A stretch of 64,000 nt of DNA, from assembly GCF_019697375.1 (NCBI RefSeq), contig NZ_JAHCDI010000004.1, forward strand, positions 248,001 through 312,000. The letters are read 5' to 3'. Source of the stretch: Micromonospora tarapacensis. GTDB taxonomy: Bacteria; Actinomycetota; Actinomycetes; Mycobacteriales; Micromonosporaceae. The position numbers were made by a program, and so were the translations under genes. The notes beneath the pieces were generated by a model. That model was not told the origin of the DNA and did no database searches. It worked only from the letters and a program-made list of their open reading frames with translations. This document shows, one piece after another, positions 1 through 24,087 of this stretch (position 1 is its first letter; the number at the start of each line of letters is the position of its first letter).

Positions 1-2
1 AT

Positions 3-3000
3 CTCAGCGACTTCTTCCGCCGCGGCGCCGCCGCCGCGACGCTGCGCCGCGACGACCTGAACACCCGCTTCCTTGGCGACCTCTACCAGGACCTCTCCGC
101 CCACGCCAAGAAGACGTACGCCCTGTTGCAGACCCCCGAGTTCGTCGAGGAATTCATCCTCGACCGCACCTTCGAGCCGGCAGTCAAGGAATTCGGCCTG
201 CCCGCCACCAGCGTCATCGACCCGACCTGCGGCTCCGGCCACTTCCTGCTCGGCGCCTTCCACCGGCTGTTCGACAAGTGGCGCGACCGCGAGCCGGCCA
301 CCGACCCCCGGGTGTTGGCGGAGCGGGCACTCGGCCAGGTCACCGGCGTCGACATCAACCCCTTCGCGGTGGCCATCGCCCGCTTCCGGCTGCTCATCGC
401 CGCCATGAAAGCCTGCCAACTGACCACCCTGGAACGCACCCCCGCCTTCCCCGTCCGGGTAGCCACCGGCGACTCCCTGCTCCCCTGGGGCGCATTCAGC
501 TCCCGCGCCCAGGGCGACCTGCTCGCCGAGCTGGAAGGCAAGGAAATCTTCGCGTACGAGAGCGAAGACGCCGACCTGCTCAAGGACTACCTGGCCGAGA
601 ACCAGTATTCAGTGGTGGTCGGCAACCCGCCCTACATCACGGTCTCCGACAGCGCCCGCAACAAGCTCTACCGAGGGCTCTACGAAACCTGCTCCGGCAA
701 GTACGCCCTCACCGTGCCCTTCGCGGAACGCTTCTTCGCGCTGGCCAAGCGTGGCGACCACGACGGAGATGGTGCCGGCCACGTCGGTCAGATCACCGGC
801 AACGCCTTCATGAAGCGCGAGTTCGGCAAGAAACTGATCAACGAATACTTTGCGAACAGCGTGGAGTTGGCCGAGGTGATCGACACCTCCGGTGCTTATA
901 TCCCTGGCCACGGCACTCCGACCGTGCTCTTGATCGGCCGTAACCGTTTCGTGAGTTCGCGCTATAGCGGCACGATTCGGACCGTGCTTGGTGTCCGCGG
1001 AGAACCATCCACCCCTGACGACCCCTCAGAAGGCAAGGTCTGGCTCGCGATCAAGGCGCAGGTAGATGCACCGGATTCTGAATCCGGATGGGTTAGTGTT
1101 GCCGACTTCGCTCGCGTTCAACTTGCCTCTCACCCATGGAGCCTCAGTGGTGGCGGCGCGCCCGGATTAATGGATGCGATTCAGGGACAAGTCGAAGCCA
1201 GAATCCGTGACCAAGCATCCATGATGGGGTTCGTCGCCATCACCGCAGAGGATGATGCATTTTTCTTGACTAAATCAGCAACTCGACGCCTGGGTGTTGA
1301 GACCACCAGGCCAATGGTTACCGGCGACGTCGTCCGCGACTTTAGAATTGCCGCCGATATTGCCGCGATTTTCCCCTACGAGGGCGATCTCGACGTGGCT
1401 GTGCCAGCCAAACTTCCGCAGATCATGAAGGTGCTGTGGCCAAACCGGCGGGTTCTTCAACGCCGCAAGCGGTTTGGTGTGCTAATCGAAGACATTCCTT
1501 CTCTGCGATGGTATGAGTTCGGTGAGCTTTACCGGGAGAAGTTGCAGACGCCGCTGTCGATTGCGTTTGCGTTTGTGGCTACGCATAACCATTTTGTGTT
1601 GGATCGGGGTGGGAAGGTCTTCAAGCAGTCGGCACCGGTGATCAAGTTGCCGGAGGGGGCGTCGGAGGACGATCACCTGCGGCTGCTCGGGGTGCTGAAC
1701 AGCTCGACCGCCTGCTTCTGGCTCAAGCAGGTCAGCCAGAGCAAGGCAGGTAGCGGGATCGGTCGGGGCATCCAGCCTGAGGCTTGGATGGATCGGTGGG
1801 AGTTCACCGGTACCAAGCTTGAAGAGTTTCCGTTGCCTTCGGCGTACCCGCTTGGGCGGGCGCGGGAGTTGGATGGGCTGGCGCAGCGGCTCGGTAGCTT
1901 GACTCCGGCGGCGGTGGCCGCGTCGGGGGTGCCGAGTCGGCAGCGGCTTGCGGAGGCTGAGGCGGAGTACCACTCGGTGCGGGCGCGGATGATCGCGGTG
2001 CAGGAGGAGTTGGACTGGGAGGTCTACCGGCTCTACGGGCTGATCGACGAGGATCTGACCTGCGCCGACCCGCCGGAGTTGAAGCTGGGGGAGCGGGCCT
2101 TCGAGATCGTGTTGCACACCAGCGGGGCGCAGACCGAGTGGTTCAACCGGCACGGGTCCAAGCCGATCGACCGGCCGAAGGCCGACTGGCCGGCGGAGTA
2201 CCGGTCGCTGGTGGAGCGGCGGATCGCGGTGATCGGGTCCAACCGGCACATCGGGTTGATCGAGCGGCCGGAGTGCAAGCGGCGTTGGTCGACCGACGGA
2301 TGGGAGAAGATGCAGTCGGTCGCGCTGCGGGACTGGCTGCTGGATCGGTTGGAGGCTCCGGAGTTGTGGGGTGGTCAGCCGGGGCCGCTGTCGGTGGCGC
2401 AGCTCGCCGACCGGGTCGGTGGTGACCAGGATTTCCGGGCGGTGCTGGAGCTGTGGGTCGGGCACGACAACTACGAGCTGACGCGGGCGCTCGGCGAGTT
2501 GGTCGCGGACGAGCATGTGCCGTACCTCCCCGCGCAGCGTTACAAGCCGGCCGGGCTGCGCAAGCGGGCGCAGTGGGAGCGGACGTGGGCGTTGCAGCGC
2601 CGGGAGGACGCGGGGGAGCAGGTCACCATCGAGGTGCCGCCGAAGTACAGCTCGGCGGACTTCGTCCGGCCGTCGTACTGGCGGGCGCGCGGCAAGCTGG
2701 ACGTGCCGAAGGAACGCTTCATCTCGTACCCGGGAGCGGGCCGGGACAGCGACGGCAGTGAGCTGCTCGGCTGGGCCGGGTGGGACCACCTGGCGCAGGC
2801 CCAGGCGCTGGCCACCGTCTATCTGGACCGCAAGACCCAGGAGGCGTGGCCGGCGCACCGGCTGTTGCCGCTGCTCGCCGGGCTGGCCGAGACCGAGCCG
2901 TGGCTGCACCAGTGGCACTCCGGCGAGCAACCCGGCTTCCCCGGGTCACCCGCCGAGTTCTTCACCGACTTCATCAACGCCGAGTTGGCCGCCCTCAGCT

Positions 3001-3050
3001 CCGACCGCTCGGCCCTGACCCTGCTGCGGGGTGTGCCCGAGTTGCCGTGA
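3..3050 (+). CDS. pglX: BREX-2 adenine-specific DNA methyltransferase PglX, 5' end outside window
   Basis: PglX is the N6-adenine methyltransferase of the type 2 BREX (phage growth limitation) system; it marks host DNA and is needed for phage restriction. The reading frame is already open at the window edge, so the N-terminus is missing; about 1,015 codons are visible. The SAM-binding motif DPTCGSGHF lies at nt 219-245 and the catalytic NPPY motif at nt 624-635, the signature of gamma-class N6-adenine methylases. The long C-terminal part (nt about 1,500-3,050) is rich in Trp and Arg, as expected for target recognition in this family. Its stop lies 16 nt from that of the convergent gene ending at 3067, with no clear terminator. 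pglW would be expected to the left. Family assignment rests on motifs plus the pglY-pglZ-brxD-brxHI block downstream. Confidence 0.9.
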   Translation, partial: LSDFFRRGAAAATLRRDDLNTRFLGDLYQDLSAHAKKTYALLQTPEFVEEFILDRTFEPAVKEFGLPATSVIDPTCGSGHFLLGAFHRLFDKWRDREPATDPRVLAERALGQVTGVDINPFAVAIARFRLLIAAMKACQLTTLERTPAFPVRVATGDSLLPWGAFSSRAQGDLLAELEGKEIFAYESEDADLLKDYLAENQYSVVVGNPPYITVSDSARNKLYRGLYETCSGKYALTVPFAERFFALAKRGDHDGDGAGHVGQITGNAFMKREFGKKLINEYFANSVELAEVIDTSGAYIPGHGTPTVLLIGRNRFVSSRYSGTIRTVLGVRGEPSTPDDPSEGKVWLAIKAQVDAPDSESGWVSVADFARVQLASHPWSLSGGGAPGLMDAIQGQVEARIRDQASMMGFVAITAEDDAFFLTKSATRRLGVETTRPMVTGDVVRDFRIAADIAAIFPYEGDLDVAVPAKLPQIMKVLWPNRRVLQRRKRFGVLIEDIPSLRWYEFGELYREKLQTPLSIAFAFVATHNHFVLDRGGKVFKQSAPVIKLPEGASEDDHLRLLGVLNSSTACFWLKQVSQSKAGSGIGRGIQPEAWMDRWEFTGTKLEEFPLPSAYPLGRARELDGLAQRLGSLTPAAVAASGVPSRQRLAEAEAEYHSVRARMIAVQEELDWEVYRLYGLIDEDLTCADPPELKLGERAFEIVLHTSGAQTEWFNRHGSKPIDRPKADWPAEYRSLVERRIAVIGSNRHIGLIERPECKRRWSTDGWEKMQSVALRDWLLDRLEAPELWGGQPGPLSVAQLADRVGGDQDFRAVLELWVGHDNYELTRALGELVADEHVPYLPAQRYKPAGLRKRAQWERTWALQRREDAGEQVTIEVPPKYSSADFVRPSYWRARGKLDVPKERFISYPGAGRDSDGSELLGWAGWDHLAQAQALATVYLDRKTQEAWPAHRLLPLLAGLAETEPWLHQWHSGEQPGFPGSPAEFFTDFINAELAALSSDRSALTLLRGVPELP

Positions 3051-3066
3051 GCCTGACTGCGGAGAG

Positions 3067-4395
3067 CTACCCAGGCCGACGGGACACGTTCGCCGGCAGG
3101 GCATAGCCGAGGCTGGTCAGCGCCCGCCGGAAATCCTGCTCCCGGTCGAGGAGTACGGCCAGGTGCTGGTCACCGATCAGCCGGCACAGCGACCGTAGCT
3201 TCCGGTCGTGGCTGATCAGCATGGCCAGCGCCGGATCCGCACAGGTGATGAGGCGCACCGGCCCCAGGTCGGTGAGCCGCCCGGCCCGCTCGGTGATCTC
3301 ATCCAACAACGTCAGCAGCGAACCGGGCAGGTCAGGCTGCGCGGCCCGGGCCCGCAGAAACCCGGCGAGGTCGGCCGGCTGCCGCCCGGCATCGACGGCG
3401 CCGAGCAGACTCTCCCGGCTGACGGTCCAGACGTGGTCACCGGTACGACGGGCGTAGCTCTCCAGCACGAGCGACTCGGCCGGGGAAAGGCGGCCGACGG
3501 CCACGACATCAAGGTTGGGCAGAACCTTCACGGTACGCACCGGCGCCTCTGGCTCAGGCGGAGTGTACGACTTGCGTACGCCGAGCACGTAGGCGCCGAG
3601 GTCGTTGAGGCGGATCGCCCGCAGCCCGTCGTACCGGCTGAGTGCGTCGAAGGAGTCGGCACCCCAGTTTTCGTGGTAGTCGTCGCGGGCGCCGCCCGGC
3701 TCGTCGTAGGCGACGTCGATCAGGCCCAGCGTCGCGGCGTACTCGAAGAGCACCGCCAGGGTGTACCGGCCCTCCAGCAGTTCCCATTCGCCGAATCCGG
3801 CATAGCCGAGGCTGCCGTACTGCGGATCCTCCAGGTACAGCTTCCACAGTGCCCGCTCGCTGCGCGCGACCCGCGGCGACCAGGCGGTCTGCTTCATCTG
3901 CGCGAAGAGATCGTCCACGCCGACCCACTCGCCGAGAGGCTGGGCGGCGAGTGCCTCGGACACCTTCTGTCGCCGTGCCTTCGGCGCGGTCAGCACATTG
4001 GCGGCGCGCTGCCCCTTGATGTTCTCGACCCGACTGAACTCGTCGATCAGACCCTTGGTCAGCCACGACCGCCACAGCGTCTGCACGACTCCAGCGGCCG
4101 GCTTGCCGAGGGCGGCCCGGCCCTTCGCGGTCAGTTGCAGCTTCCCGCCGGTGATCTCGGCGAGGCCGCCCGCCTGCACCAGCAGCGGCCAGGCGAACGC
4201 GGCGATCGGCTCGTCCGGATAGAAGTCACCCGAGGACAAGGTCTTCGCCACCTCGACCACGGTGGCCGCCGCTGGCCGCCGCGTCTTCTCGCTGCACCGC
4301 AGCCGCCCGGAATCACACAACCGCAGCACGGCGTGCACGTCGTCGGCCGCGTACCGCTCGGTCCGGCGTACGAGCCCTGCCACCTGCCCGGCCAC
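3067..4395 (-). CDS. XPB/Ssl2 N-terminal-like (Helicase_C_3) protein in the BREX island
   Basis: A 442-residue protein without Walker motifs, so not itself a helicase. The C-terminal third (from about residue 270: VKVLPNLDVVAVGRLSP, then VSRESLLGAVDAG and a PGSLLTLLDE stretch) matches what I know of the XPB/Ssl2 N-terminal domain (Pfam Helicase_C_3), found in DNA-repair helicases and in stand-alone bacterial proteins. The N-terminal part looks like winged-helix segments (LRLCDSGRLRCSEKTRRP). I chose GTG 4395 because GGAGGA at 4402-4407 sits 6 nt upstream; an ATG at 4458 would overlap the gene ending at 4418. It lies 22 nt behind that gene and is probably cotranscribed. A DNA-binding role in defence is inference from location. 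Confidence 0.65.
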   Translation of the reverse strand: MAGQVAGLVRRTERYAADDVHAVLRLCDSGRLRCSEKTRRPAAATVVEVAKTLSSGDFYPDEPIAAFAWPLLVQAGGLAEITGGKLQLTAKGRAALGKPAAGVVQTLWRSWLTKGLIDEFSRVENIKGQRAANVLTAPKARRQKVSEALAAQPLGEWVGVDDLFAQMKQTAWSPRVARSERALWKLYLEDPQYGSLGYAGFGEWELLEGRYTLAVLFEYAATLGLIDVAYDEPGGARDDYHENWGADSFDALSRYDGLRAIRLNDLGAYVLGVRKSYTPPEPEAPVRTVKVLPNLDVVAVGRLSPAESLVLESYARRTGDHVWTVSRESLLGAVDAGRQPADLAGFLRARAAQPDLPGSLLTLLDEITERAGRLTDLGPVRLITCADPALAMLISHDRKLRSLCRLIGDQHLAVLLDREQDFRRALTSLGYALPANVSRRPG

Positions 4396-4417
4396 GAGCG
4401 TTCCTCCCCAGTTGTCG

Positions 4418-5143
4418 TCAGAACAGAGTTGGGACGACAGTGAAGTGGTAGTTGTCACGGCCGACCGTCCGGTCGAGGGTACGCATGATCCGATCGGGGT
4501 TGTCGTGTGGACCCTGCTGGAAGTAGGGCGTGCCGTTCAGGCCGAAGGTGATCCGGCTCGGCGGCTCCCAGGTGCCGAGGAGCGGTGCGGCGCTGTAGAA
4601 GTCACGATGCGGGTCGAAGCCGAGGCCGCGTGCGTAGTCGACAGCACCGAAGACCAGGTGCCGGGCGAGGTCGATGGGAGCCTCGACCGGCGGTGTGTCG
4701 TAGGCGGCGAAGAACTCGGCCACAAAATGCGGCACCTCGTCGGGATCGGAGGTGGTCGGTGGCAGCGCATTCTTGACGCCGAGACAATAGGTGTCGACCA
4801 GGAAGCCGCAGGTGCTCGCCGCATCGCCGTCCGCACGGGCGACCGCGACGCTGACCAGGCCGGCGCCCATCGCCATCGGCGGCAACTCGGCGTCGTCAAC
4901 CCAGTCCGCCGGTCGGTCGGCCACGCTCAGGCCGTTGCTCCACTGCCGGCTGATCCAGCAGCCCAGCAGCGGCAGCTCCGCCGGGTGCACCCGCCCCGGA
5001 CGTACGACATCGACGCCCCGCACCAGCCGGGTGACCACGGCACGGGTGACCCCGAGGTCGCGGGCGATCTGCTTGGGCGTCTTACCGGCGGCCCGCAGCG
5101 CCTGCGCCCGCTCCTTCAACTCCTTCGATTCCACCCGCGCCAT
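4418..5143 (-). CDS. HTH-domain protein with conserved C-terminal domain of unknown function
   Basis: 241 residues. The N-terminus (residues 3-45, with KTPKQIARDLGVTRAVVTRL) is a resolvase/Hin-like helix-turn-helix. The rest carries motifs I associate with a widespread uncharacterised bacterial domain: FLVDTYCLGVKNALPP, then HLVFGAVDYARGLGFDPHRDF and SRITFGLNGTPYF. The reading frame stays open upstream to 5377, but that part is low-complexity and Arg/Pro-rich; ATG 5143 starts directly before the HTH and is preferred. It is followed after 22 nt by the XPB-N-like gene, so the two probably act together. No enzymatic residues can be assigned. Regulator or DNA-binding defence accessory are both possible. 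Confidence 0.6.
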   Translation of the reverse strand: MARVESKELKERAQALRAAGKTPKQIARDLGVTRAVVTRLVRGVDVVRPGRVHPAELPLLGCWISRQWSNGLSVADRPADWVDDAELPPMAMGAGLVSVAVARADGDAASTCGFLVDTYCLGVKNALPPTTSDPDEVPHFVAEFFAAYDTPPVEAPIDLARHLVFGAVDYARGLGFDPHRDFYSAAPLLGTWEPPSRITFGLNGTPYFQQGPHDNPDRIMRTLDRTVGRDNYHFTVVPTLF

Positions 5144-5187
5144 CCTGCTGTCGCCCCGCCCCACCGTCAACGCCGCCACGCTGGGCG

Positions 5188-5634
5188 TCAGGACGGCTGG
5201 TCCGGCGAGTCGGCGGCACGCTGTTGTGCCACGACCGGGCGGTCCGGTAGCACCAGCAGGATGGCCAGCGCCAGGTTGCCACCCAGCGCGATCACGTTGC
5301 CGACCTGGTCTGCTGGTGGATAGACCCGCAAGTGCAGTGAGTGCCAGAGGAAGTGCACCGCGGTGAAGATCAGCCAAGCGCCGCCGGCCATCCGCAGCGC
5401 GGACGGCGTCGGTCGCCGCCAGGCCATCACGCTGAGCACGAGCAACGCCAGGTAGAGGGCACCGACGTCGTGGGTCAAATGCTCGTTGTACGGCCCGAGC
5501 GCGGAGACCCAGTTGCGCCCCGGCCAGGGAAAATCGGTGTAGAACGACTGAGGATAGGCAGCGGCCCAGACGCCGACGACCGCAGCCGTCACAGCGAGAA
5601 GCCCGACGATCGCACGTTTACTCTTGATGCTCAC
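5188..5634 (-). CDS. Small integral membrane protein, function unknown
   Basis: 148 residues with four likely membrane segments: about residues 7-27 (AIVGLLAVTAAVVGVWAAA), 55-70 (DVGALYLALLVLSVMAW), 80-100 (MAGGAWLIFTAVHFLWHSLHL) and 112-128 (VIALGGNLALAILLVL). Short charged termini and a His-rich third segment (HFLWHSLHLRVYPP) recall small actinobacterial DoxX/DUF-type membrane proteins, but I cannot place it in a named family. It lies 44 nt upstream of the HTH gene on the same strand and could belong to that unit. Confidence 0.6.
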   Translation of the reverse strand: MSIKSKRAIVGLLAVTAAVVGVWAAAYPQSFYTDFPWPGRNWVSALGPYNEHLTHDVGALYLALLVLSVMAWRRPTPSALRMAGGAWLIFTAVHFLWHSLHLRVYPPADQVGNVIALGGNLALAILLVLPDRPVVAQQRAADSPDQPS

Positions 5635-5709: not shown

Positions 5710-6357
5710 TCAAATGCTGGCGCGATAGCCGCCGACGATGTTGGCGGAGCCGGTGAGCATCCCGGACGAGTCGTGCACGAGGCCGCGGGCCTCGGACAGC
5801 GTGGCGTCCACGGCCCGAACCACCTCTGGTCGTCCGCCGGCCAGAACCGCGTTGAGGGCGTTCTGGCTGGCCCACATGGTCCGGTGAATCTCGGCGAGCT
5901 GCCGCGAGGCTCGGTCGAGCTGCCCTACCACGTTGTCGAGGCCGCCGATCACCTGCCCTGCGATGCTGGCCGAGCCTCCTCGCGGCCGTGGCGTGGAAAG
6001 GCTTCCGGCTACGCCATTGCTGCCGCTTCTTCGGAGCCATTCTCGATGAGATGCAGCCGCTGCCGTGGCAGCCCTCCTCTGGTCGCGCCGCTCACGAAGG
6101 TGGTCGATGCCAGCCACCACGATCGCCTTGCCCTGCGAGCCGACCATGCCGCCGATGATCGCTCCGCCGGTCGAGGCGACGGCGGGGGACACCGGCATCC
6201 CGTACTTGGCGCCCGCGAGACCGGCCAGCATCCCGACGCCGGCCCCGCCCCACTCGACCAGCCTGCCGAGGGCCTCCTTGGCGCTTTCGTACTTCAACCG
6301 CCGCGCGAACGGCCGCTCGACTTGCTTTCTACGGCGATTGTCCTTACGCCAGCTCAT
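5710..6357 (-). CDS. Hypothetical protein with glycine-rich membrane-active segment (operon gene 3)
   Basis: 215 residues, third gene of a tight operon. A basic N-terminus (MSWRKDNRRRKQVERPFARR) is followed by a Gly/Ala-rich hydrophobic region at residues 36-75 (GGAGVGMLAGLAGAKYGMP and GGAIIGGMVGSQGKAIVVAG), the kind of glycine-zipper segment seen in membrane-inserting or phage-tail-associated proteins. The C-terminal half (about 125-205) is amphipathic helical. ATG 6357 overlaps the TGA of the preceding gene by one base, indicating translational coupling. No family recognised. The first gene of the operon is a WXG100-sized helical protein, which could suggest a secreted or effector-like set, but nothing proves it. 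Confidence 0.6.
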   Translation of the reverse strand: MSWRKDNRRRKQVERPFARRLKYESAKEALGRLVEWGGAGVGMLAGLAGAKYGMPVSPAVASTGGAIIGGMVGSQGKAIVVAGIDHLRERRDQRRAATAAAASHREWLRRSGSNGVAGSLSTPRPRGGSASIAGQVIGGLDNVVGQLDRASRQLAEIHRTMWASQNALNAVLAGGRPEVVRAVDATLSEARGLVHDSSGMLTGSANIVGGYRASI

Positions 6358-6992
6358 CAGGCTGAGGTTGGATCCAGGTAACCGCAGCTTACGGCGATGA
6401 GCAGCGGCAGATGAGCGGCGATGTCGTGGGCGACCTCGGCCGGCGCCGTGCCTGACGGCTCGTCACCCTCCGCAACGTTCTCGGAGTCGTCCGCGTAAAG
6501 GACGCACGCCTGCCATAGATCGGGATCGCGCCATGAGAACGACCAGAGCCCGTAGACGTCCACCGGCACGGCGACCTTGGTTTGGGCAGCGTGGCCGATG
6601 CGGTGGAGGTGGGGCTCCTCGGGAGTGGAGCCGAGCCCTTCTCCGAGGGGGAGGAGTTTGTGGCGGCGGAAGACTGGTTCGAGGTCGCCGTCGGTGTCGA
6701 ACTCCACGAGTAGGCCACGGGCGATCAGGCTGTCGACCAGGCGGGTGGCCTGGGGCTCCGGGTTCGGAGCGGTCTCCAACAGCCGGATCAGTGACTCCCG
6801 GTTGACTTCGAGCTTGGCGTGTCTTTCGGCATCCATGAAGGCTGCTGCCCAGACTGCCGCCTCGGTCTCGGTCAGCTCGATCAGGTCGTCGCCGAGGTGA
6901 ATCTCGTAGCACTCGGGGATCGGGTCCGGCGGGCGGACATAGCGGTAGCGGGGGCCCATGGACAGGCCAACGGGGACGATGACGCGTGGCAT
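6357..6992 (-). CDS. Hypothetical protein (operon gene 2)
   Basis: 211 residues, mostly soluble. It starts MPRVIVPVGLSMGPRYRYV and has two visible parts: an N-terminal domain with LIELTETEAAVWAAAF and a helix-rich segment (ESLIRLLETAPN, LVDSLIARGLLVEF) that looks like a winged-helix fold, and a C-terminal domain with VDVYGLWSFSWRDPDLWQACVLYA. I chose ATG 6992 because AGAGG precedes it and it follows the first gene by 16 nt; the open frame further upstream overlaps that gene. A winged-helix sensor of the kind found in peptide-maturation operons is conceivable but unsupported. Function unknown. Confidence 0.6.
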   Translation of the reverse strand: MPRVIVPVGLSMGPRYRYVRPPDPIPECYEIHLGDDLIELTETEAAVWAAAFMDAERHAKLEVNRESLIRLLETAPNPEPQATRLVDSLIARGLLVEFDTDGDLEPVFRRHKLLPLGEGLGSTPEEPHLHRIGHAAQTKVAVPVDVYGLWSFSWRDPDLWQACVLYADDSENVAEGDEPSGTAPAEVAHDIAAHLPLLIAVSCGYLDPTSA

Positions 6993-7008
6993 GTGGACCT
7001 CTTGGGTG

Positions 7009-7269
7009 TCAGAAGCCGGCGGCGTATCGCTTGGTCGTGTCGACCGCGCCCATCGCGAGCTGTGAAGCCTCGTTGAGCTTGGCCTTGACCTGCTCGATCT
7101 GGCTGATCGCCTGGCCGACCGCAGGGTGACTTGTGCCGGCGGTGACGGCCTGTAGCAGCGCGAGGCTCTGCTCCAGCGAGTCGTGCACCGCGCGGAGCTG
7201 GGTAACACTCTGCTGCGTTTGCTGCCCGAACCGGTTGATGCCGGCCTTGATCTCCTCAATCGACGCCAC
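7009..7269 (-). CDS. Small helical WXG100-sized protein (operon gene 1)
   Basis: 86 residues, almost entirely amphipathic helix (MASIEEIKAGINRFGQQTQQ; a run of SLALLQAVTAG; VGQAISQIEQVKAKLNEASQ). Size and helical-hairpin character resemble WXG100/ESX proteins or small coiled-coil structural proteins, but the WxG turn is absent (a Gly-rich turn TAGTSHPAVG sits mid-protein), so membership is not claimed. First gene of the operon running down to 5710; CDS gaps are 16 nt and -1 nt. The 240 nt upstream (to 7512) carry no gene and should contain the operon promoter and that of the divergent gene at 7531. Confidence 0.55.
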   Translation of the reverse strand: MASIEEIKAGINRFGQQTQQSVTQLRAVHDSLEQSLALLQAVTAGTSHPAVGQAISQIEQVKAKLNEASQLAMGAVDTTKRYAAGF

Positions 7270-7530
7270 CGCGACGACTCCTCCCCCGTAAACATCGAGC
7301 GTGATCGTAGCGACCGTACCGGATCATGTGCTGTGCGTCAGCCCTCGGTCACTCATCTGTCAAGGACGAGTCTCGGCTGGCGGCAAGCTGTGGCTACAGC
7401 GCCAGCGCCACTTCGATGGGCATTGAAACGATCAGATATGTCGGGGTGTCACGAGTTGCAAGCACTCGGAAGTCTGTTGCGATCCCAGTCGTCCGGTCGC
7501 ATCCGCTGACGCATGATCGGAACCCCATCG

Positions 7531-7971
7531 ATGGCGAAGAGTAAGGGACGCCCGCAGAAGGGGCGGCTCGCCGACATGACGATCCGTCCGGCCGGCGATG
7601 ACTGTTACGAGCCGCCGCCGGACGAGGACTGCGAAGAATTTCCGACGGTCATCGACCTTGCGCCGAACGTTCGCATGGGGGTGCGCACGACGTACCTGCG
7701 TGGTACCAGCCGGATGGTCTACTTCGCCATCTGGCAGGCGATCAAGGTTGACGGCAAGTGGGAGAACGTGGCGCGCGTGGACTGCCACCACGGGACGATC
7801 CACCGGCATGACTTCACCCGCCAGGGGGACAACCATGTGGTGGTCCTTGACGTAATACCGGTAGCCGGTGGCGCAAGCGAGGTTCTCGACTCGTGGTGTA
7901 CGCAGGTCGAGTTGATCATGCAGAATGAATGGGAAGACAACCTACGGAGGTGGCGTGGTGACAGGGAGTGA
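7531..7971 (+). CDS. Hypothetical protein, first of a two-gene unit
   Basis: 146 residues from ATG 7531 (an in-frame ATG at 7513 is possible; neither has a strong ribosome binding site). After a basic start (MAKSKGRPQKGRLADM) comes an acidic stretch (PPPDEDCEEFPTVIDL), then a beta-rich region with VYFAIWQAIKVDGKWENVAR and DCHHGTIHRHDF, ending in an aromatic/acidic helix. The His-rich HHGTIHRH segment might bind metal; this is only an observation. Its stop overlaps the next start by 14 nt, so the two are translated together. I recognise no family with certainty. Confidence 0.5.
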   Translation: MAKSKGRPQKGRLADMTIRPAGDDCYEPPPDEDCEEFPTVIDLAPNVRMGVRTTYLRGTSRMVYFAIWQAIKVDGKWENVARVDCHHGTIHRHDFTRQGDNHVVVLDVIPVAGGASEVLDSWCTQVELIMQNEWEDNLRRWRGDRE

Positions 7972-8498: not shown

Positions 8499-8546
8499 GA
8501 GCTTGATTTCACACAGACGTAAATATTTCTGTGTGAAATCAAGCTC
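8499..8546. terminator. Perfect 19-bp AT-rich inverted repeat between convergent genes
   Basis: GAGCTTGATTTCACACAGA at 8499-8517 is repeated in perfect inversion at 8528-8546, with a 10-nt loop containing AAATATT. It lies between the convergent genes ending at 8401 and 8589 and is strikingly AT-rich for this genome. A bidirectional terminator is the simplest reading; a binding site or a trace of an inserted element is possible. Confidence 0.6.
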
Positions 8547-9772: not shown

Positions 9773-9951
9773 TAGACATTTCACTGCGCGTGTCCGGGGA
9801 AAGTCATAGCTGATCAGTCGTCGTTTGTTAGACGTTGCATTTCTATCGAGCCGGTGCTTCACTCTCTCCACGGCCACTGTGGAACCGCTGCTCAGCGGCC
9901 ATGTCTGCCCTGTTGCCGTACTGCCGATGAGGGCTGCGGTGGCAGGTGCCG

Positions 9952-9990: not shown

Positions 9991-10026
9991 GTCCACATCG
10001 CCAAAGCGAACGAGAGCGAGGCCTGC

Positions 10027-12795: not shown

Positions 12796-12796
12796 G

Positions 12797-16900: not shown

Positions 16901-17947
16901 GCATGGTCGGACGCGGTGCACCGGGGCGCCAGGCTCTTCGGCAGGGTGCTGCCCGGCTGGCGTACCCCGGCCAATCTGGGCACCCTCGCCGGCACGCTGC
17001 GCGAGGCGGCGGCGCAGCGCCATCCGGCCGCCGCCGACCTGGTGGACGCGCTGACCGCGCACGCCGAGCTGCTGGGGCTGGACGCCGCAGCGCCGGTCGG
17101 ACGGCTCGCGACCGCCCGACGGGCGGCCCGATTCGTCGCCGACATCGCGGGTGAGCGGGACGACGTCGTGCTCGTCGAATCCGTCGCCGCCGTCGACTTC
17201 GGCGACATCGACGACGAGGCTGTCAGCGAGGTGCTCAGCCGGGCCGGTGGGCTCAGCCGGGCGCTCCAGCAGGACAACCAGTGGCCGCTGCTCAGCGCCG
17301 TCTCGGCCCGCGCCGCCCACGACGAGCAGGCGCGTCAGATCATCGGTGAGCTGCGTGGCGTCGTCCAGCACGAGCAGCACGGACAGGACCTTCTCGACGC
17401 CATCCGGACAGCGGTCCGCCGGTCCACCGCGCTGCTCGCCGGCACTGCCCCGGCCCAGCCCGGCGTGGTCGGCACTGCCCCGGCCCAGCCCGGCGTGGTC
17501 GGCACTGCCCCGGCCCAGCCCGGCGTGGCCGGCACGGATTCGCCGCGGCAACGGCCGAACGACGGCGGGCCGGCGACGGGCGGCGAGGTCGTGGCCGGCG
17601 GCAGTGCCGCGGTGGCGGGCAGCGGCATCGCGCTGCCCGGTCACCGGCGGCCCGGTGAGGACCGTCCGGTCGAGGGCGGCAGCCTCGTCGAGGCGGCTGG
17701 AACCGCGATGTCGCCGGAGGGTGCCGGACCCCCGGGCCGGCGGCACCGGCACCGGAGTCGGCACCGGCACCGGAGTCGGCGTCGGGCGGCGGCACGAGGT
17801 CACGGACGTGGCCACCTGGAAGGAGGTCGCCGCCGAGATCGAGGCGGCGGTCGCCGCCGGCCGGCGGGTCACCATCAGCTGGGAGACCCGGTGACGGCGA
17901 GTCCGCGCGCAGCGGCTGGGGCGGTCGCGGTGGGTGTGGTGCCGTGA
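13955..17947 (+). CDS. pglY: BREX-2 ATPase PglY, apparent C-terminal frameshift
   Basis: PglY is the large P-loop ATPase of BREX-2, required with PglZ for phage exclusion. ATG 13955 follows GAGGAGG. Walker A (GSFGSGKSHF) is at residues 66-75; a Walker B-like segment (ALVLFLDELILWLS) is near residue 260. The frame shown ends at 17947 in an Arg/His-rich tail, but another frame ending at 17894 carries a conserved-looking end (VATWKEVAAEIEAAVAAGRR then VTISWETR). Both are joined by two added bases, one likely in CCCCC 17729-17733 and one near 17786-17794, giving about 1,313 residues. The region before it is a low-complexity linker with two tandem repeats. The true end is probably 17894, 50 nt before pglZ. 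Confidence 0.88.
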   Translation: MGLLRDVIEIPTSVGDGDFVVRAAEGADLRRYVVTEQLRENFAEALRRIGHAVTTGRSQAMFLHGSFGSGKSHFMAVLREILQHNPDARQIRGLAEPVLAADPWLRDRKLLTLTFHMLDARSVEQAVLEGYLNQITALHPEAPVPAVHRSDALLDDAARLRGRMGDEAFFAALHDGGSAPVASGAGLAAHVTRAAGWTAERYAAAAAEAPGTEQRDLLVSALTSTFFTGAVRSGEYLDLDTGLAVITRHAKALGYDALVLFLDELILWLSTKLSDHVFVNTEGAKLNKLVESADATRPLPLISLVARQRNLEDFLGPQVGGTEREALAHVMRSVQGRFGEIALADTNLPEITEKRLLKPLTDEGRAVLDNAFAAVRGNREVWDTLLLGAQYGDAGIGSDAAAFRKLYPFSPALVATLVALSQALQRERTALKVMTELLVARRDTLKVNDLIGVAALFDPLVLHGELPDRLKLKQLFQSARVLYTQKLRPILLNLNNITEEQAAGHQQFQLDDKLIKTVLLGALVPEVPALHNLTAAKLHALNFGSITSPIPGYERQIVLNRLNRVADSAGELHLTKAPDPVVSLKLHAVDYDRLLDLVPDEETTTTGVRQQLIREMVTAEMGITGADGQLGELLHPRDWRGRRHTVQVKFGNVRDPDTMPVSALLATGEAWRVVVDYPFDLQGYERTADRARIESLERGSRTVFWLPFFLTDEMMAKVGQLAKINYLLGNGTGDRLNSLAADWSLADRQQGRVYLQQRQSQLRSTLLGALMQAYGSATSRGSDVRDDSVGVFHTLAEGLHLGDPRGGTLAEAFHHLTGELLGWSYPGRPAMPDEEKPVSRAELAKILEYATRAAADPARGVSVANPADQRTLRRVCNNLGLGELVDGRYVLTTSTCRWSRHLLQAAADQGYTDHFPVDLLRRLVDVPAPFGFDRELQNLIILVFGLEQQLAWYQHSGKIDVGSVLAVRDDLELRHPPMPDEQAWSDAVHRGARLFGRVLPGWRTPANLGTLAGTLREAAAQRHPAAADLVDALTAHAELLGLDAAAPVGRLATARRAARFVADIAGERDDVVLVESVAAVDFGDIDDEAVSEVLSRAGGLSRALQQDNQWPLLSAVSARAAHDEQARQIIGELRGVVQHEQHGQDLLDAIRTAVRRSTALLAGTAPAQPGVVGTAPAQPGVVGTAPAQPGVAGTDSPRQRPNDGGPATGGEVVAGGSAAVAGSGIALPGHRRPGEDRPVEGGSLVEAAGTAMSPEGAGPPGRRHRHRSRHRHRSRRRAAARGHGRGHLEGGRRRDRGGGRRRPAGHHQLGDPVTASPRAAAGAVAVGVVP
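17441..17530 (+). repeat. Three 30-bp tandem repeats inside pglY
   Basis: Units 17441-17470, 17471-17500 and 17501-17530 are identical except near the end of the last. Each encodes GTAPAQPGVV, making a Pro/Ala linker. A second tandem pair of 18-bp units lies at 17742-17759 and 17760-17777. In-frame length means copy number can vary without breaking the gene. Confidence 0.9.
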
Positions 17948-20646
17948 TGAGACACCCGGTGAGCGCCGCGACGCCCGATGCGGTCCGGCGCAAGGTCGAG
18001 GCGTGGCTGGGCGAGAACGACCCGGCGTACGCCATCGCGCTGGCCGCCCGCCCGGAGTGGCCCGCCGATCCGGTGCTCAGCGTGGGCGAAGCCCGGATCC
18101 GGGTGGTGCCCTGCCCGACACCCCTGGCCGCCCGCGCCGCCCTGCACGACCGGGTCGCCGGTGAACGGCTGGTCCTGCTCACCGAGTTGGGCGAGAGCGA
18201 CCTGGGCGACGGACTGCTCGCCCACCTCAGCAAGCAGACCATCCGCAAGATCGACCGCTGGGAGCTGGTCCGGCAGTTGTTCCGCGGGGTGGCCGGCCTG
18301 GACCCGACCCTGGTCCGGACCGGACGGTGGGTCGCGGACGCGCTCAGCGACCACGCCCCGCCCGGGGGGTGGCCGGCGCCATCCGGCACGATCCTCACCC
18401 GCGACCACGCGCTGCGCAGCCTCACCGCCGAACTACTCGGCCTGCCGGCCGGTGAACTGGACGACAGTGGCCTGGTGCAGTGGACCACCGTGGCCGACAG
18501 GCAACAGCGGTTCATCGGCGCGTCGGAAGCCGTGGCGGAGGGCATCACCGCGTACCTGACCGGCATCGCCGGCCGGGCCGCCGCCGGCATCATGGCCGCG
18601 GTGCGGGCCGGGCACGGGGTCGACGTCATCCCGGTGGGACTGCTGGTCGGGCTGCTCTGGTCCGGTACGGGTAGCAGCGAGGTCGCCGCGGCGGTCGGCC
18701 GGACCCGGCTGGAGCCGAAGTTCGGCGGGCTGTCGTTGACCGCTGACCAGGCCGAGGCGTTGCACCAGGCCGCAGAGGCATGGGTCTACCGGACGGTTGA
18801 CACCGGCGTCGACGGTCGCGCCGAGGCGATGCGGATGCTGCGCCGAGCCGAGGCGATCGCCGCGGAGATCGGCATCACCGAGCTGCTCGGCGCGTCGACC
18901 GTCCTGCCCAGCGGTTTCGTCCAGCGGCTGCGGGCCTTCGCCGACGCCGTGCGCCTCGCCCTGCCGGCCGGCGGCCCCGCGCTGCCGGCCGCTGTGAACC
19001 GGGCGCAGGCGGCGCTCGCGACCGTGGAAGCACACCGGGCACATGAGCCGCGCCGGCAAGAAGCGGCCAGGATGGCACTGCGCCTGCTGCGCTGGCTCAG
19101 CATCCCCGAGACCGGCGCACCGGCCACCCTGCTCGACGCGCTGCACCGGCAGGTCCGGCAGGACGGGTGGGTCGACCGCGCCCGGCTCGACATCTTCGCC
19201 GGCGACCCCGACCCGCAGGTCGGTGCGGCGTACCGGCTGCTGCACCAGGCGGTGGACGGCCGCCGATCCCGGCACGACCAGCAGTTTGCCGACCTGCTCG
19301 CCGCCACCACCGGTGCGGAGAGCGAACCCGGTGCCCTGCTGCGCGTGGAGGACGTCCTCGACCGGGTGGTCCAGCCGATCCTCGACCAGCGGCGGCGGGT
19401 GCTGCTGCTGGTGCTCGACGGGATGGGTGTCGCGGCGGCGACCGAGGTGGCCGAGTCGGTCACCCGTCGAGGTGCGTGGGTGGAACTCACCCCCGGCGGT
19501 GGAAACCGCACGGGCATCCTGGCGGCACTGCCCACCGTGACCGAGGTCAGCCGGTGCAGCCTGCTGAGCGGACGGATCACCACCGGCGGTCAGCAGGCGG
19601 AGCGGACGGCATTCCGGCAGCGGTTCCCCACCGGGCTGCTGCTGCACAAGGCGTCACTGCGTGCCGGTGCCGGGATGGCGCTCGACGTGGAGGTGCGGGC
19701 GGCCGTCGACGACCCCTCGGTCCCGGTGGTGGCCGCCGTGGTCAACACCATCGACGACGCGCTCGATCGCAGCGATCCGGGCACCACCGTCTGGGGGACG
19801 GACACCCTCACCGCCGTCGACGACCTGCTGGCGTCGGTGACCGACCGGGTGGTGGTGGTGGTGGTCTCCGATCACGGCCATGTCGTCGACCGCGGGCCGG
19901 AGGCGGTCGTCCTGCCCAGCCCCAGCAGCGAGAACCGGTGGCGGCCGGCCACCGTGCCAGCCGGAGACGGCGAGGTCAGGCTGGCCGGCAGCCGGGTGGC
20001 GCTCGCAGGTGGCGAGATCGTCGTGCCCTGGCGTGAGGAGGTGCGGTACGGGCCGCGCAAGGCCGGCTACCACGGCGGTGCCGCCGCGGCCGAGGCGGTG
20101 ATCCCGCTGCTCGTGCTGGCCCCCGGTGACGATCTCACCGTGCCAGGTTGGGGCGGTGCTCCGGTGGCCAGCCCGGACTGGTGGCGCGAGCCGCTGCCCG
20201 AGACGTCCGATCCACCGGCCGAGCCGGCCCCGCCAGCCCGCCGCCGTCTCCGCCGCCCGGTCGAGCACCAGCCCGAAGGGCTTTTCGATCTGATGGCCGC
20301 CGCCCCGCCTGCCGCCGCCCCGGTGCCCGGTCCGGCGGCCGACCTGGTGACCGCGCTGTTGGCCAGCGACCGGTACGCCCAACGGCGTGACCCCCGGCTG
20401 CCGCTCGCCGACGAACGGGTCGCCGCGCTGCTGCGTACCCTGCTCGCCAACGGTGACCGGGCGACCCTCGACACCCTCGCCGCGCGGGCCCGGATCCCCG
20501 CGCACCGCATCACCGGCACGCTCACGGCGCTGCGCCGACTGCTCCAGGTCGAGGGCTATCCCGTGCTCAACGTCGATCCGGACGGGCGGACGGTGCACCT
20601 CAACCGCACCTTGTTGATCGAGCAGTTCGAGCTGGGGCCGCAGTGA
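17944..20646 (+). CDS. pglZ: BREX-2 alkaline-phosphatase-fold protein PglZ
   Basis: 900 residues (GTG 17944 or ATG 17947). PglZ is the hallmark BREX protein of the alkaline phosphatase superfamily. The metal-binding core is visible: LLLVLDGMG near residue 488, the LPTVTEVSRCSLLSG segment near 530 and VVVVSDHGH near 642, followed by YHGGAAAAEAVIPLLVL near 708, which closes the domain. The N-terminal 450 residues are helical, and a Pro-rich linker (about 745-800) precedes a C-terminal winged-helix-like region. It follows pglY by 49 nt if pglY ends at 17894 and overlaps the start of brxD (GTGA). Confidence 0.93.
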   Translation: MMRHPVSAATPDAVRRKVEAWLGENDPAYAIALAARPEWPADPVLSVGEARIRVVPCPTPLAARAALHDRVAGERLVLLTELGESDLGDGLLAHLSKQTIRKIDRWELVRQLFRGVAGLDPTLVRTGRWVADALSDHAPPGGWPAPSGTILTRDHALRSLTAELLGLPAGELDDSGLVQWTTVADRQQRFIGASEAVAEGITAYLTGIAGRAAAGIMAAVRAGHGVDVIPVGLLVGLLWSGTGSSEVAAAVGRTRLEPKFGGLSLTADQAEALHQAAEAWVYRTVDTGVDGRAEAMRMLRRAEAIAAEIGITELLGASTVLPSGFVQRLRAFADAVRLALPAGGPALPAAVNRAQAALATVEAHRAHEPRRQEAARMALRLLRWLSIPETGAPATLLDALHRQVRQDGWVDRARLDIFAGDPDPQVGAAYRLLHQAVDGRRSRHDQQFADLLAATTGAESEPGALLRVEDVLDRVVQPILDQRRRVLLLVLDGMGVAAATEVAESVTRRGAWVELTPGGGNRTGILAALPTVTEVSRCSLLSGRITTGGQQAERTAFRQRFPTGLLLHKASLRAGAGMALDVEVRAAVDDPSVPVVAAVVNTIDDALDRSDPGTTVWGTDTLTAVDDLLASVTDRVVVVVVSDHGHVVDRGPEAVVLPSPSSENRWRPATVPAGDGEVRLAGSRVALAGGEIVVPWREEVRYGPRKAGYHGGAAAAEAVIPLLVLAPGDDLTVPGWGGAPVASPDWWREPLPETSDPPAEPAPPARRRLRRPVEHQPEGLFDLMAAAPPAAAPVPGPAADLVTALLASDRYAQRRDPRLPLADERVAALLRTLLANGDRATLDTLAARARIPAHRITGTLTALRRLLQVEGYPVLNVDPDGRTVHLNRTLLIEQFELGPQ

Positions 20647-21947
20647 CCGCGGAGATCTCCGCCCGCCGCCGTCGGGACATCATCGACGCCCTGCGCCGTG
20701 GCGTGGTGCCGAGCAGCGGTCTGGACGCGCTCGCCGTCGGGTTGGACCGGTTCGCCGCCGCACTCGACGACGACCTCGACCGGGTCGCCGGCGGTGGCAG
20801 CGTCTTCAAGGCGGTACGTGGCGAGTACGGCGCCGGCAAGACCTTCTTCACCCGCTGGCTGGCCGAGCGAGCCAAGCGACGCGGCTTCGCCGCCGCCGAG
20901 GTGCAGATCTCGGAGCTGGAAACCCCGCTGCACCGGATGGAGACGGTCTACCGCCGCCTGGTCGAGCACCTCAGCACCGAGCAGTTCGCGCCCAGCGCCT
21001 TCCGCCCCGTCCTCGACGGTTGGATCTTCGCCCTGGAGGAGGACGTGCTGGCCGGCGGCGCTGTCGCCGAGGACGACGCGGACGCCCTCGACCGGGCGGT
21101 GAACGACCTGTTGGAGCGCCGGTTGGGGGACATCTCCCGGAACACCCCCGGTTTCGCGGCTGCGCTGCGCGGCTACCGGGCCGCCGGCGCGGGTGCCGAC
21201 CACGCCACCGCGGACGGCCTCGCGGCCTGGCTGGGCGGCCAGCCACACGTCGCCGCGGCGGCGCGTCGGGCGGCCGGCGTCAAGGGCGACCTCGACCACT
21301 ACGGCGCGTTGAGCTTCCTGCGCGGGTTGCTGACCGTGCTGCGAGACAGCGGGCACCCGGGGCTGCTGCTGGTGCTCGACGAGGTCGAGACCCTGCAACG
21401 GGTACGCTCCGATGCCCGCGACAAGGCCCTCAACTCACTGCGTCAACTCATCGACGAGGTCCACGCCGACCGCTTTCCGGGCCTGCTCGTGCTGATCACC
21501 GGCACGCCCGCGTTCTATGACGGCCCGCAGGGAGTGCAGCGGCTCGCGCCGCTCGCCCAGCGACTCGCCACCGACTTCGGCCCGGAGCCGCGCTGGGACA
21601 ACCCGCGCGCCACCCAGCTGCGACTGCCGGGCTTCACCACCGACGCGCTCGTCGACCTGGGCCAACGGGTACGCGCGATCTACGCCAGCCCGGAGGTCGA
21701 TTCCCGGGTCGACGACGAATACCTGGCTCTGCTGGCGGTGGCCGTCACCGGTGCGCTGGGTGGCCAGGTCGGCGTGGCACCCCGGATCTACCTGAAGAAA
21801 CTGGTCGCGGACGTCTTCGACCGGGTCGACCAGTTCGCCGACTGGAATCCGCGCCGGCACTACCAGCTGACCCTGCGGGTCGACGAACTGACCGACGTGG
21901 AACGTAACGCCGCCGCGTCCGCCGACGACCTCGAACTGCCGATCTGA
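20643..21947 (+). CDS. brxD: BREX system ATPase BrxD
   Basis: 434 residues. BrxD is the AAA-type ATPase of type 2 BREX. Walker A (GEYGAGKTFF) is at about residues 60-69, Walker B (LLLVLDEVETL) near 241-252, and a sensor-like LLVLITGTPAFYDGP near 282; the C-terminus (GVAPRIYLKKLVADVFDR) resembles other BREX/archaeal-type ATPases that load helicases. The start GTG 20643 overlaps the pglZ stop; ATG of brxHI follows one nt after the brxD stop. Tight coupling to a helicase gene fits a loader-helicase pair, which is inference. Confidence 0.92.
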   Translation: MTAEISARRRRDIIDALRRGVVPSSGLDALAVGLDRFAAALDDDLDRVAGGGSVFKAVRGEYGAGKTFFTRWLAERAKRRGFAAAEVQISELETPLHRMETVYRRLVEHLSTEQFAPSAFRPVLDGWIFALEEDVLAGGAVAEDDADALDRAVNDLLERRLGDISRNTPGFAAALRGYRAAGAGADHATADGLAAWLGGQPHVAAAARRAAGVKGDLDHYGALSFLRGLLTVLRDSGHPGLLLVLDEVETLQRVRSDARDKALNSLRQLIDEVHADRFPGLLVLITGTPAFYDGPQGVQRLAPLAQRLATDFGPEPRWDNPRATQLRLPGFTTDALVDLGQRVRAIYASPEVDSRVDDEYLALLAVAVTGALGGQVGVAPRIYLKKLVADVFDRVDQFADWNPRRHYQLTLRVDELTDVERNAAASADDLELPI

Positions 21948-21948
21948 G

Positions 21949-24048
21949 ATGCCGCTCGACCTCGATCCGGTCGTGGTGCACCACCTGGTCAACACCCTCG
22001 GCTGGCGGGACCTGCGGCCGATGCAGCGCGCCGCGATCGGGCCGGTGCGCGGCGGCGCGGACGTGCTGCTGCTGGCGCCCACCGCGGGCGGAAAGACGGA
22101 GGCCGTGCTGTTTCCGCTGCTGACCCGGATGGCGGAGCAGCGGTGGGCCGGCACCTCGGTGCTCTACCTGGCACCACTCAAGGCGCTGCTCAACAACCTG
22201 CAACCCCGCGTCGAGCAGTACGCCGGATGGCTCGGACGGCGGGCCGCCGTCTGGCACGGCGACGTCACTGCGTCCCGACGCCGGGCGGTGCTTCACGAAC
22301 GACCCGACATCCTGCTCACCACGCCCGAATCGCTGGAATCCATGCTGGTCGGCACGAAGGTCGACCACGGGACCTTCTTCGCCGGACTGCGCGCCGTGGT
22401 GGTGGACGAGGTGCACGCCTTCGCCGGGGACGACCGCGGCTGGCATCTGCTGGCCGTGCTGGAACGGCTGACCCGGGTGGCCGGGCGCCCCCTGCAACGG
22501 GTCGGGCTCTCCGCCACCGTGGGCAATCCGGGCCAGTTGCTCACCTGGCTCCAGGGCGCGGGAGCGGGCGACCGGCCGGCGGAGGTCGTCGCTCCGGAGC
22601 TGGCCACAGTGCTCGACCGCCCGCCACCCGGCGACATCGAGCTGGACCATGTCGGCTCGCTGGTCAACGCCGCGACGGTGATCGCCGGCCTGCACCGGGG
22701 GGAGAAGCGGCTGGTCTTCTGCGAATCCCGGCAGGCCGTCGAGGAACTCGGCCAACTGCTGCGGGCGAAGGGGGTGACCACGTTCCTGTCGCATGCCTCG
22801 CTCTCCGTCGACGAGCGGCGTCGCGCCGAGCAGGCGTTCAGCGAGGCGCGGGACTGCGTCATCGTCTCCACCAGCACGCTGGAACTCGGCATCGACGTCG
22901 GTGACCTGGACCGGGTGATCCAGATCGACGCGCCAGCCACCGTCGCGTCGTTCCTCCAGCGGCTCGGCCGCACGGGTCGCCGGGCCGGCAGCAGTCGCAA
23001 CTGCCTGTTCCTGACCCTCGACGGTGCGGCACTGACCGAGGCGGCCGCGCTGCTGCTGCTCTGGTCACGCGGCTGGGTCGAGCCGGTCGTCGCCCCGCCG
23101 GAGCCCCGGCACATCGTCGCCCAGCAACTGCTCGCCCTGTGCCTACAGGAACACCGGGTGGGTGACCAGCTGTGGGTGGACGCATGGAACGGGCTGTCTC
23201 CGTTCGGGGAAGCCGCCCGGCCCATCGTCCGTCACCTCGTCGAGCACGGTTACCTCGACCGGGACGCGGGAATGCTCTTCATCGGCCCGGCCGCCGAGGC
23301 GCGCTTCGGCCGGCGGCACTTCATGGACATGACGGCGGTCTTCACCGGGCCGCCGGAGTTCACCGTCCTGCTCGGGCGCACCGAGTTGGGGCGGATCGAC
23401 CCCAGCCTGCTCACCGAGGAGGTCCGGGGCGAACGTCGGCTGCTGCTGACCGGCCGCAGCTGGCGGGTCACCTACATCGACTGGCGGCGGCGGCGTTGCT
23501 TCGTCGAGCCTGCCGACGGCGGCGGCCGTGCCCGCTGGTCCGGCACCGGTTGGGCATACCAGGGCTTTGCGTTGACCCGTGCGGTGCGTGAGGCCCTGCT
23601 CGGTGTGGATCCGCCGGTGCGGCTCACCCGTCGCGCGGTCGAGCGGCTCGCCCGGGAGCGGGAGGAGAGAGCGCACCTGGTGCATCCCGGCGGCACCGTG
23701 GTGCTTCGGGAGGACGGTGGGGACCTGCGTTGGTGGACCTGGGCCGGCGTACGGGCGAACGCGACGCTGGCCGCGACCCTCGGTGAGGTCGTCGACCCGG
23801 TGGCCCGGTTCGACGACCACAGCATCCGGCTGCGGGAGAACCTGACGCCGTCCGCGTGGCGGGCGCTGACCGCCGACGCCGGCCAGCGGCTCTGCCTGCC
23901 CGAGGTCGACGAGAAGGCGCTCGACGGCCTGAAGTTCAGCGTCGCGCTGCCGAAGCGGCTCGCCGCGGCGACCCTCTCCGCCCGCCTCGCCGATCTGGCG
24001 GCGGCAGCCACCGTGCTGGGCGAACCGGTCCGGTTCGTCGTGACCTGA
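21949..24048 (+). CDS. brxHI: BREX-2 DEAD/DEAH-type helicase BrxHI
   Basis: 699 residues, superfamily 2 helicase related to Lhr. Motif I APTAGGKTEA at about residue 43, Ib TTPESLESML near 124, motif II VVVDEVHAF (DEVH) near 149, motif III GLSATVG near 185, motif VI QRLGRTGRRAG near 340, then an Lhr-like C-terminal region. In BREX-2 loci this gene usually closes the operon, as here. A 9-bp hairpin follows the stop and the next gene is convergent. Confidence 0.92.
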   Translation: MPLDLDPVVVHHLVNTLGWRDLRPMQRAAIGPVRGGADVLLLAPTAGGKTEAVLFPLLTRMAEQRWAGTSVLYLAPLKALLNNLQPRVEQYAGWLGRRAAVWHGDVTASRRRAVLHERPDILLTTPESLESMLVGTKVDHGTFFAGLRAVVVDEVHAFAGDDRGWHLLAVLERLTRVAGRPLQRVGLSATVGNPGQLLTWLQGAGAGDRPAEVVAPELATVLDRPPPGDIELDHVGSLVNAATVIAGLHRGEKRLVFCESRQAVEELGQLLRAKGVTTFLSHASLSVDERRRAEQAFSEARDCVIVSTSTLELGIDVGDLDRVIQIDAPATVASFLQRLGRTGRRAGSSRNCLFLTLDGAALTEAAALLLLWSRGWVEPVVAPPEPRHIVAQQLLALCLQEHRVGDQLWVDAWNGLSPFGEAARPIVRHLVEHGYLDRDAGMLFIGPAAEARFGRRHFMDMTAVFTGPPEFTVLLGRTELGRIDPSLLTEEVRGERRLLLTGRSWRVTYIDWRRRRCFVEPADGGGRARWSGTGWAYQGFALTRAVREALLGVDPPVRLTRRAVERLAREREERAHLVHPGGTVVLREDGGDLRWWTWAGVRANATLAATLGEVVDPVARFDDHSIRLRENLTPSAWRALTADAGQRLCLPEVDEKALDGLKFSVALPKRLAAATLSARLADLAAAATVLGEPVRFVVT

Positions 24049-24049
24049 C

Positions 24050-24087
24050 GGTCCGGCCAACGAATCGGGTGGCCCGGCGGCCGGACC
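24050..24087. terminator. Hairpin after brxHI
   Basis: GGTCCGGCC (24050-24058) pairs perfectly with 24079-24087 across a 20-nt loop, between the convergent brxHI and L,D-transpeptidase genes. Probably the BREX operon terminator. Confidence 0.5.

Follow-up and report, generated by a model that had tools for sequence, protein, structure and literature searches.

The closest described system to the locus reported here is the phage growth limitation (Pgl) system of Streptomyces coelicolor, a type 2 bacteriophage exclusion (BREX) system. Its genes pglW, pglX, pglY and pglZ lie in two separated operons, which the available text of PMC4365076 places 6 kbp apart. BREX loci can also harbour other systems. 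The available part of PMC11341690 describes PARIS (AriA/AriB) embedded in the type 1 BREX of Salmonella, and a BREX survey (PMC12839542) describes, for BREX genes generally, OLD-ABC/TOPRIM and GmrSD modules in their vicinity; its main text contains neither DUF262 nor Micromonospora nor 'pglW and pglX'. The classes of OLD proteins are treated in PMC10568477. No paper on BREX in Micromonospora was found in the open-access literature searched. The locus described here is in Micromonospora tarapacensis. The window is a 64,000-nt stretch (C4:248001-312000) of the 5.64-Mb contig NZ_JAHCDI010000004.1 (C4); coordinates without a prefix refer to the window, the relatives are Micromonospora, and the genomes compared are designated by G numbers.

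The locus is probably best understood as two BREX operons whose products act in trans around the cargo of a chromosomal hotspot, together with a PARIS-like and BrxU-like module, PDC-M55ABC, that may serve as a backup. Attention thereby moves from the gap between the two BREX blocks, which is mostly neighbourhood, to a module within a BREX operon. It is the comparison with sites empty of BREX that decides between them.

Two BREX blocks and their reading frames

The first-pass annotation proposed a type 2 BREX locus split by a 10.9-kb gap, with S. coelicolor as a precedent, and both points hold. Genes were called from open frames and a codon guanine-cytosine (GC) rule, with no trained gene finder; the BREX genes were checked by Pfam and PADLOC. 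All are on the + strand. The start of pglX lies 453 nt beyond the left edge of the window, and its end is at 3050; the 1167-aa product matches PADLOC PglX at 1470.7 bits and DUF7008 at E 6e-149. The second block (13952-24048) lies beyond 14 intervening genes and consists of pglY, also called brxC (13952-17947; BrxC/PglY, 1372.8 bits), pglZ (17944-20646; PglZ, 920.9 bits), brxD (20643-21947; BrxD, 670.2 bits) and brxHI (21949-24048; BrxHI, 1059.4 bits). The block had been located correctly, but the start given for pglY (13955) was 3 nt off. pglW, which it had been suggested might lie to the left, is indeed there at C4:236055-240208, on the same strand as pglX. In this assembly it is present as two overlapping frames (PADLOC PglW, 1049 and 436 bits), and its NERD and kinase domains are supported by both Pfam and PADLOC. 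The type 2 set is complete, with pglX, pglZ, brxC/pglY, brxD and brxHI matched by PADLOC at 671-1471 bits, plus pglW; DNA methylation and phage restriction would be expected of a working set. One result spoils an otherwise clean picture: the genome-wide scan with the Pfam PglZ model (PF08665) gave no match in this genome. Scanned directly with PF08665, the PglZ protein scored 26.1 bits, where the cut-off is 25.

Four genes lie between pglW and pglX, left of the window and on the same strand as pglX. They are dpdE (C4:240282-243590), encoding a DpdE-like SNF2 helicase, M55A (C4:243615-244949), M55B (C4:244939-245778) and M55C (C4:245791-247512). The spacers from pglW through to pglX are 73, 24, -11, 12 and 34 nt. 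Because the strand is shared and the spacers range from 73 to -11 nt, pglW-[dpdE-M55A-M55B-M55C]-pglX is likely a single operon. The full set would then occupy two operons, the other being pglY-pglZ-brxD-brxHI, and their products most likely cooperate in trans, as in S. coelicolor Pgl. The locus differs from that system in its 10.9-kb gap, in having dpdE and M55ABC between pglW and pglX, and in the frame disruptions that this assembly shows in pglW and pglY.

These disruptions could mean that the locus is decaying in this strain, with pglW, pglY and the gap gene g13 broken and BREX inactive. Such decay is possible but somewhat doubtful. pglW is disrupted in comparison with 5/5 aligned relatives, where it is a single frame, and g13 in comparison with 4/4; the C-terminal tail of pglY is in a different frame from that of G040. 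BREX relics are also known in the genus. On the other hand, pglX, pglZ, brxD, brxHI and M55ABC are all open, and the three short disruptions in the region could be assembly errors. Relatives have pglW, pglY and g13 intact.

The PDC-M55ABC module

The gap between pglX and pglY had been put forward as a good place to look for additional defence or regulatory partners. The stronger BREX-linked candidate lies outside it, between pglW and pglX. M55A, M55B and M55C are adjacent, and all match the PDC-M55 models of PADLOC strongly (597.8, 305.8 and 819.2 bits respectively). PDC-M55 is a PADLOC candidate for which no published function was found in the open-access literature searched. Placing it in BREX-2 and reading M55B as a TOPRIM protein are additions made here.

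M55A has AAA_15/AAA_21 domains and is an OLD-type ABC ATPase as in AriA (AriA model, E 2.8e-20). M55B models as an OLD-type TOPRIM domain and may be a nuclease. As with AriA and AriB of PARIS, the pair consists of separate, adjacent genes for an OLD-type ATPase and a predicted TOPRIM-fold protein inside BREX. M55C carries a DUF262 (GmrSD_N) domain (Pfam, E 3e-22), and DGHQR, an instance of the DGxQR motif, is present in 10/10 sequences. It resembles BrxU in this domain and in the overall structural match of a low-confidence model, but the sequence match spans residues 17-67 only. PARIS responds to anti-restriction proteins such as Ocr. By analogy with AriA/AriB, M55A would hold M55B inactive and release it when a phage product blocks BREX, and M55C would attack modified phage DNA. 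If so, type 2 BREX has a backup of its own for when phages inhibit it, which also seems true of some type 1 islands.

The distribution of the module is tied to BREX within the genus. Full-strength PglY matches (E 0) were found in 42 of 160 Micromonospora genomes, and any match at E 0.001 in 45. M55C matches at E 1e-40 are present in 26 of the 160; 11 score 685-837 bits and the others 288 bits or less. All 11 strong copies are in BREX-2 loci, adjoining pglX or pglW, nine oriented as pglX and two (G043 and G081) reversed. The chance that 11/11 would fall within 42/160 genomes is 1.4e-7 if genomes are independent, which they are not. Across 330 genomes of the family, M55B was matched in 30: five matches are weak and 25 strong, with 16 of the strong ones outside the genus, at 17 loci. 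Seven of these 17 loci have the module between pglW and pglX, two of them reversed. In a tree of M55A plus M55B (27 rows, without the G043 module and with a partial M55A from G062), all 14 copies embedded in the forward orientation, which carry five genus labels, fall in one fully supported clade. The three reversed embedded copies are in the other half of the tree, among free copies, which indicates that the same slot captured the module at least twice. M55B of the window is 41% identical to that of G153, as against 85% for pglY, so the module either changes fast or is swapped.

A more specific proposal, made tentatively, is that type 2 BREX in Micromonosporaceae has a composite guard dedicated to it, PDC-M55ABC. 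Its parts, a BrxU-like protein and an OLD ATPase/TOPRIM pair, would have been captured inside the pglW-pglX operon at least twice, in opposite orientations. In the forward orientation it would have been inherited together with BREX in several genera, as a single clade. The module, fast-changing in sequence, would sense phage inhibition of PglX or PglW and respond with a nucleolytic backup. It would bring together two kinds of accessory that are known from type 1 BREX islands, but separately. Several observations weigh against these interpretations. M55A scores higher on PADLOC NsnB (142.9 bits) than on AriA (71.5 bits). The putative HNH histidine of M55C is kept in 5/10 sequences (the asparagine in 10/10). 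The module is absent from most BREX-2 loci, 31 of the 42 BREX-2 genomes of the genus being without it. At ten of the 17 loci outside the genus, the roughly 10 kb read on each side contains no BREX-2 core gene, and M55C was not detected in four of these ten. Finally, according to the available text of PMC11341690, the PARIS embedded in Salmonella BREX was inactive in tests, and its deletion raised defence about tenfold against one phage.

The gap genes and the chromosomal hotspot

The gap holds 15 open frames, counted as 14 genes (g1-g14) because two overlapping frames make up one disrupted gene, g13. Both BREX operons and the gap lie within a hotspot bounded on the left, beyond pglW, by an M50-peptidase/CBS-domain gene, and on the right by a YkuD gene (24103-25029) and an amylase-domain gene (25225-26772), both on the - strand. 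The M50-peptidase/CBS and amylase-domain genes were used as markers. There were 148 left and 124 right marker rows, with both in 113 genomes; right matches of 609 bits or less, probably paralogues, were excluded, as were unlisted matches. The markers are collinear on one contig in 110 of these 113 genomes, 94 nt to 45 kb apart, and on different contigs in three. Only five intervals exceed 20 kb (G040, G061, G000, G070 and G153), and all belong to BREX carriers; the other 105 are at most 19.2 kb. G133 is a sixth BREX carrier at the hotspot.

Most of the gap genes are also found at this site without BREX. Congeners that lack both BREX blocks at the hotspot have g1-g6 and g9-g13 there, in unchanged order. 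G126 is one case: in nucleotide alignment, the left flank of the window (to -12066) is followed by 445 nt and then g1 (from 3092), and on the other side g13 (to 12689) is followed by 48 nt and then the right flank (from 24103). Both pglW-pglX and g14-brxHI are absent, and the gap genes are present. The second BREX block is also missing in G120, G117, G140, G097 and G082, with at most 879 nt remaining at the site. No match to pglW, M55 or pglX was found in the intervals of G120, G140, G097 and G082, nor in the G117 stretch. The DpdE-like helicase is retained in G097 and in G082, which has a BREX of another group (B, below) elsewhere. g13 (10688-12696, +) is found in 55 of the 160 genomes, 37 of them among the 118 outside the full-strength PglY set, and g12, a gene of 86 aa, has 1-15 matches in every one (160/160). 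Around 16 copies of g13, XRE is in place in 14, the DivIVA-like g11 in 15 and g12 in 16; several also have g1-g6. The gap is thus poorly described as a store of BREX partners: since relatives without BREX carry them, its genes are probably not BREX partners. They would mostly be hotspot cargo, most likely functionally independent.

Sixty-nine BREX-free intervals were read (the 60 longest remaining and nine chosen earlier, so that short intervals are under-represented). XRE, DUF397 and g12 occur together in 25 of them. M55A, M55B, M55C, pglX, pglZ and brxD were found in 0/69; pglW matches occur in two (nearly whole in G073), pglY in one and brxHI in two. dpdE, solitary in the likely pglW-pglX operon, is present in four, as well as in the BREX loci of G153 and G113. 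A tree of the right marker (19 rows) needs three changes to account for BREX at the hotspot, and G040, with BREX, is sister to G140, without it. Occasional losses of BREX at the hotspot are suggested by relics in G073 and G002.

For 41 other BREX loci, stretches of at most 20 kb about pglY and upstream of it were compared, and the loci are sorted here into three groups. Group A (18 loci) has pglY 68-92% identical to that of the window, and pglX and pglY are 2.9-12.3 kb apart (17 measured). In group B (18 loci; pglY 36-39% identical) the distance is 3.9-15.0 kb (17 measured), and in group C (5 loci; 37-39%) it is 45-590 nt. Group A gaps contain g12 in 15/18, g13 in 11, g11 in 10, g2 and g6 in three each, g4 and g5 in two each and g1 in one. 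DUF397 and XRE occur in 1/18 group B gaps, and group C has a short g1 match in 1/5. g3, g7, g8 and g14 were not found in any of the 41 loci. Gap content is mostly unshared: 254 open frames, called by the codon-GC rule (15 from the window, the rest from fetched loci with pglX inside the stretch), fall into 123 clusters, 79 of them singletons. When 115 gap representatives from outside the window were compared with PADLOC at 1e-8, 70 families were matched; among the 25 families listed, which include PDC-S11, AbiLi, Orf5, ShosA, QatC, type IV restriction endonuclease, HEC-05 and HEC-06, each was matched by one member. The pglX-pglY position therefore does accept defence genes in other species. Other families recur within the group B gaps, for example a 1074-aa protein without a name in eight genomes and a GmrSD_N protein (HEC-05-like) in four.

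It is unlikely that BREX was once contiguous and that the gap genes arrived later as a mobile island. The short pglX-pglY distance in group C would fit, as would the location of all or part of g4-g13 outside the hotspot in G143, G116 and G055. GC content also dips to 0.63-0.67 at 6-10 kb, though parts of pglX are equally low. Against an island, strains without BREX at the hotspot have the gap genes in the identical position, between the same flanks, and no integrase or transposase was seen among these genes in scans of the gap proteins.

A regulatory link to BREX-2 is quite improbable. It would make the XRE/DUF397/DivIVA-like/g12 genes, perhaps with g13, a real partner, in which XRE controls a divergent promoter reading towards pglY-pglZ-brxD-brxHI. 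The genes concerned are g9 (DUF397) and g10 (XRE/DUF5753; together 8589-9723, -), and g11 (DivIVA domain) and g12 (together 9946-10691, +). g9 and g10 are a confirmed XRE-DUF397 pair, an HTH_31 plus DUF5753 gene adjoining DUF397. Streptomyces pairs have the same arrangement; here it is at a hotspot beside BREX. Fourteen such pairs in S. coelicolor are regulators and none is a toxin-antitoxin system, according to the available text of PMC10364602, and the pair here would be a small regulator of its own. Conservation without BREX, which had been named as a test of the gap genes, is largely but not quite equal, and the shortfall counts against treating them all as cargo. DUF397 and XRE are in 16/18 group A gaps, also where BREX is elsewhere on the chromosome. 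Group A BREX is elsewhere in G033, G050, G065, G119, G098, G075, G008 and G012, whose hotspot intervals measure 0.4-9.3 kb. At the hotspot the pair is commoner with BREX (5/6 against 25/69, p 0.035). g13 is carried by 15/20 genomes with the BREX subtype of the window and 40/140 others (p 9e-5, treating genomes as independent of ancestry); G118 is among the 20 by profile matches of a second copy rather than measured identity, and without it the count is 15/19. g11-g14 also read towards pglY. The 16/18 loci and the g13 counts favour some association, and the link is retained as a rival for this reason.

Set against it are the BREX-free intervals with the module, the universal g12, the strong hairpins on either side of g14 (towards g13 and towards pglY), and the XRE trees. 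Copies covering less than 80% (47-row tree) or 75% (51-row tree) of the query were excluded. The trees show nine changes of BREX label (seven forced) and ten (six forced) respectively; in the second there is some clustering of the labels, a count as low arising in 5 to 7 of 500 shuffles. 'No BREX' here means none at that place; G055, G082, G012, G008, G034, G043, G019 and G099 have BREX elsewhere. The window XRE groups with G082, G120 and G117, which have no BREX at the place (support 96/94 in the 47-row tree, 98/73 in the 51-row tree). In the 51-row tree, where the long branches of G272a and G033 risk false joins, the G040 copy is placed with G140 and G097 (99/93), one subclade joins seven BREX loci elsewhere with a free-standing copy (G053), and different XRE subfamilies occupy the same place. 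By these trees, which mix BREX and non-BREX copies, the XRE module does not follow BREX at the hotspot. A pattern of gap genes conserved with BREX and absent without it is contradicted by the BREX-free copies and the mixed XRE tree.

Other features of the gap

g7-g8 and g11-g14 share their strand with BREX; g1-g6 and g9-g10 are on the other. g1 (3067-4458, -) encodes 463 aa with a Helicase_C_3 domain. g2 (4418-5152, -) has weak helix-turn-helix matches; its function is unassigned, as are those of g4 (5710-6357), g5 (6357-7010) and g6 (7009-7269), all on the - strand. g3 (5188-5634, -) has a weak DUF4345 match. g7 (DUF7718) and g8 (function unassigned) span 7513-8401 on the + strand. g12 belongs to a family found genus-wide, and g13 is about 700 aa in relatives. 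g14 (12862-13812, +) combines an AbiEi_4 antitoxin-like part and a DUF559/MTES_1575 nuclease-like part; no AbiEii-type partner was recognised adjoining it. Among the window's gap genes scanned with PADLOC (g1, g2, g4, g5, g7, g10, g13 and g14), only the AbiEi-like g14 and, weakly, the XRE gene were matched.

BREX-2 remnants occur in other genomes: pglW stands without pglX or pglY in G021 and G025, G025 also having a brxHI-like fragment, and G017 has part of a pglX. A perfect 19-nt inverted repeat 3' of g8 (8499-8546, fold z -8.7) is probably a terminator. An intergenic palindrome of about 75 bp occurs at 10316-10389, 12726-12797 and 13809-13880. g14 lies between the second and third copies, whose folding is strong (z -5.7 and -6.5). 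The palindrome belongs to a genome-wide family, with 43 forward and 43 reverse arm matches at up to three mismatches, against 1 and 0 for the control.
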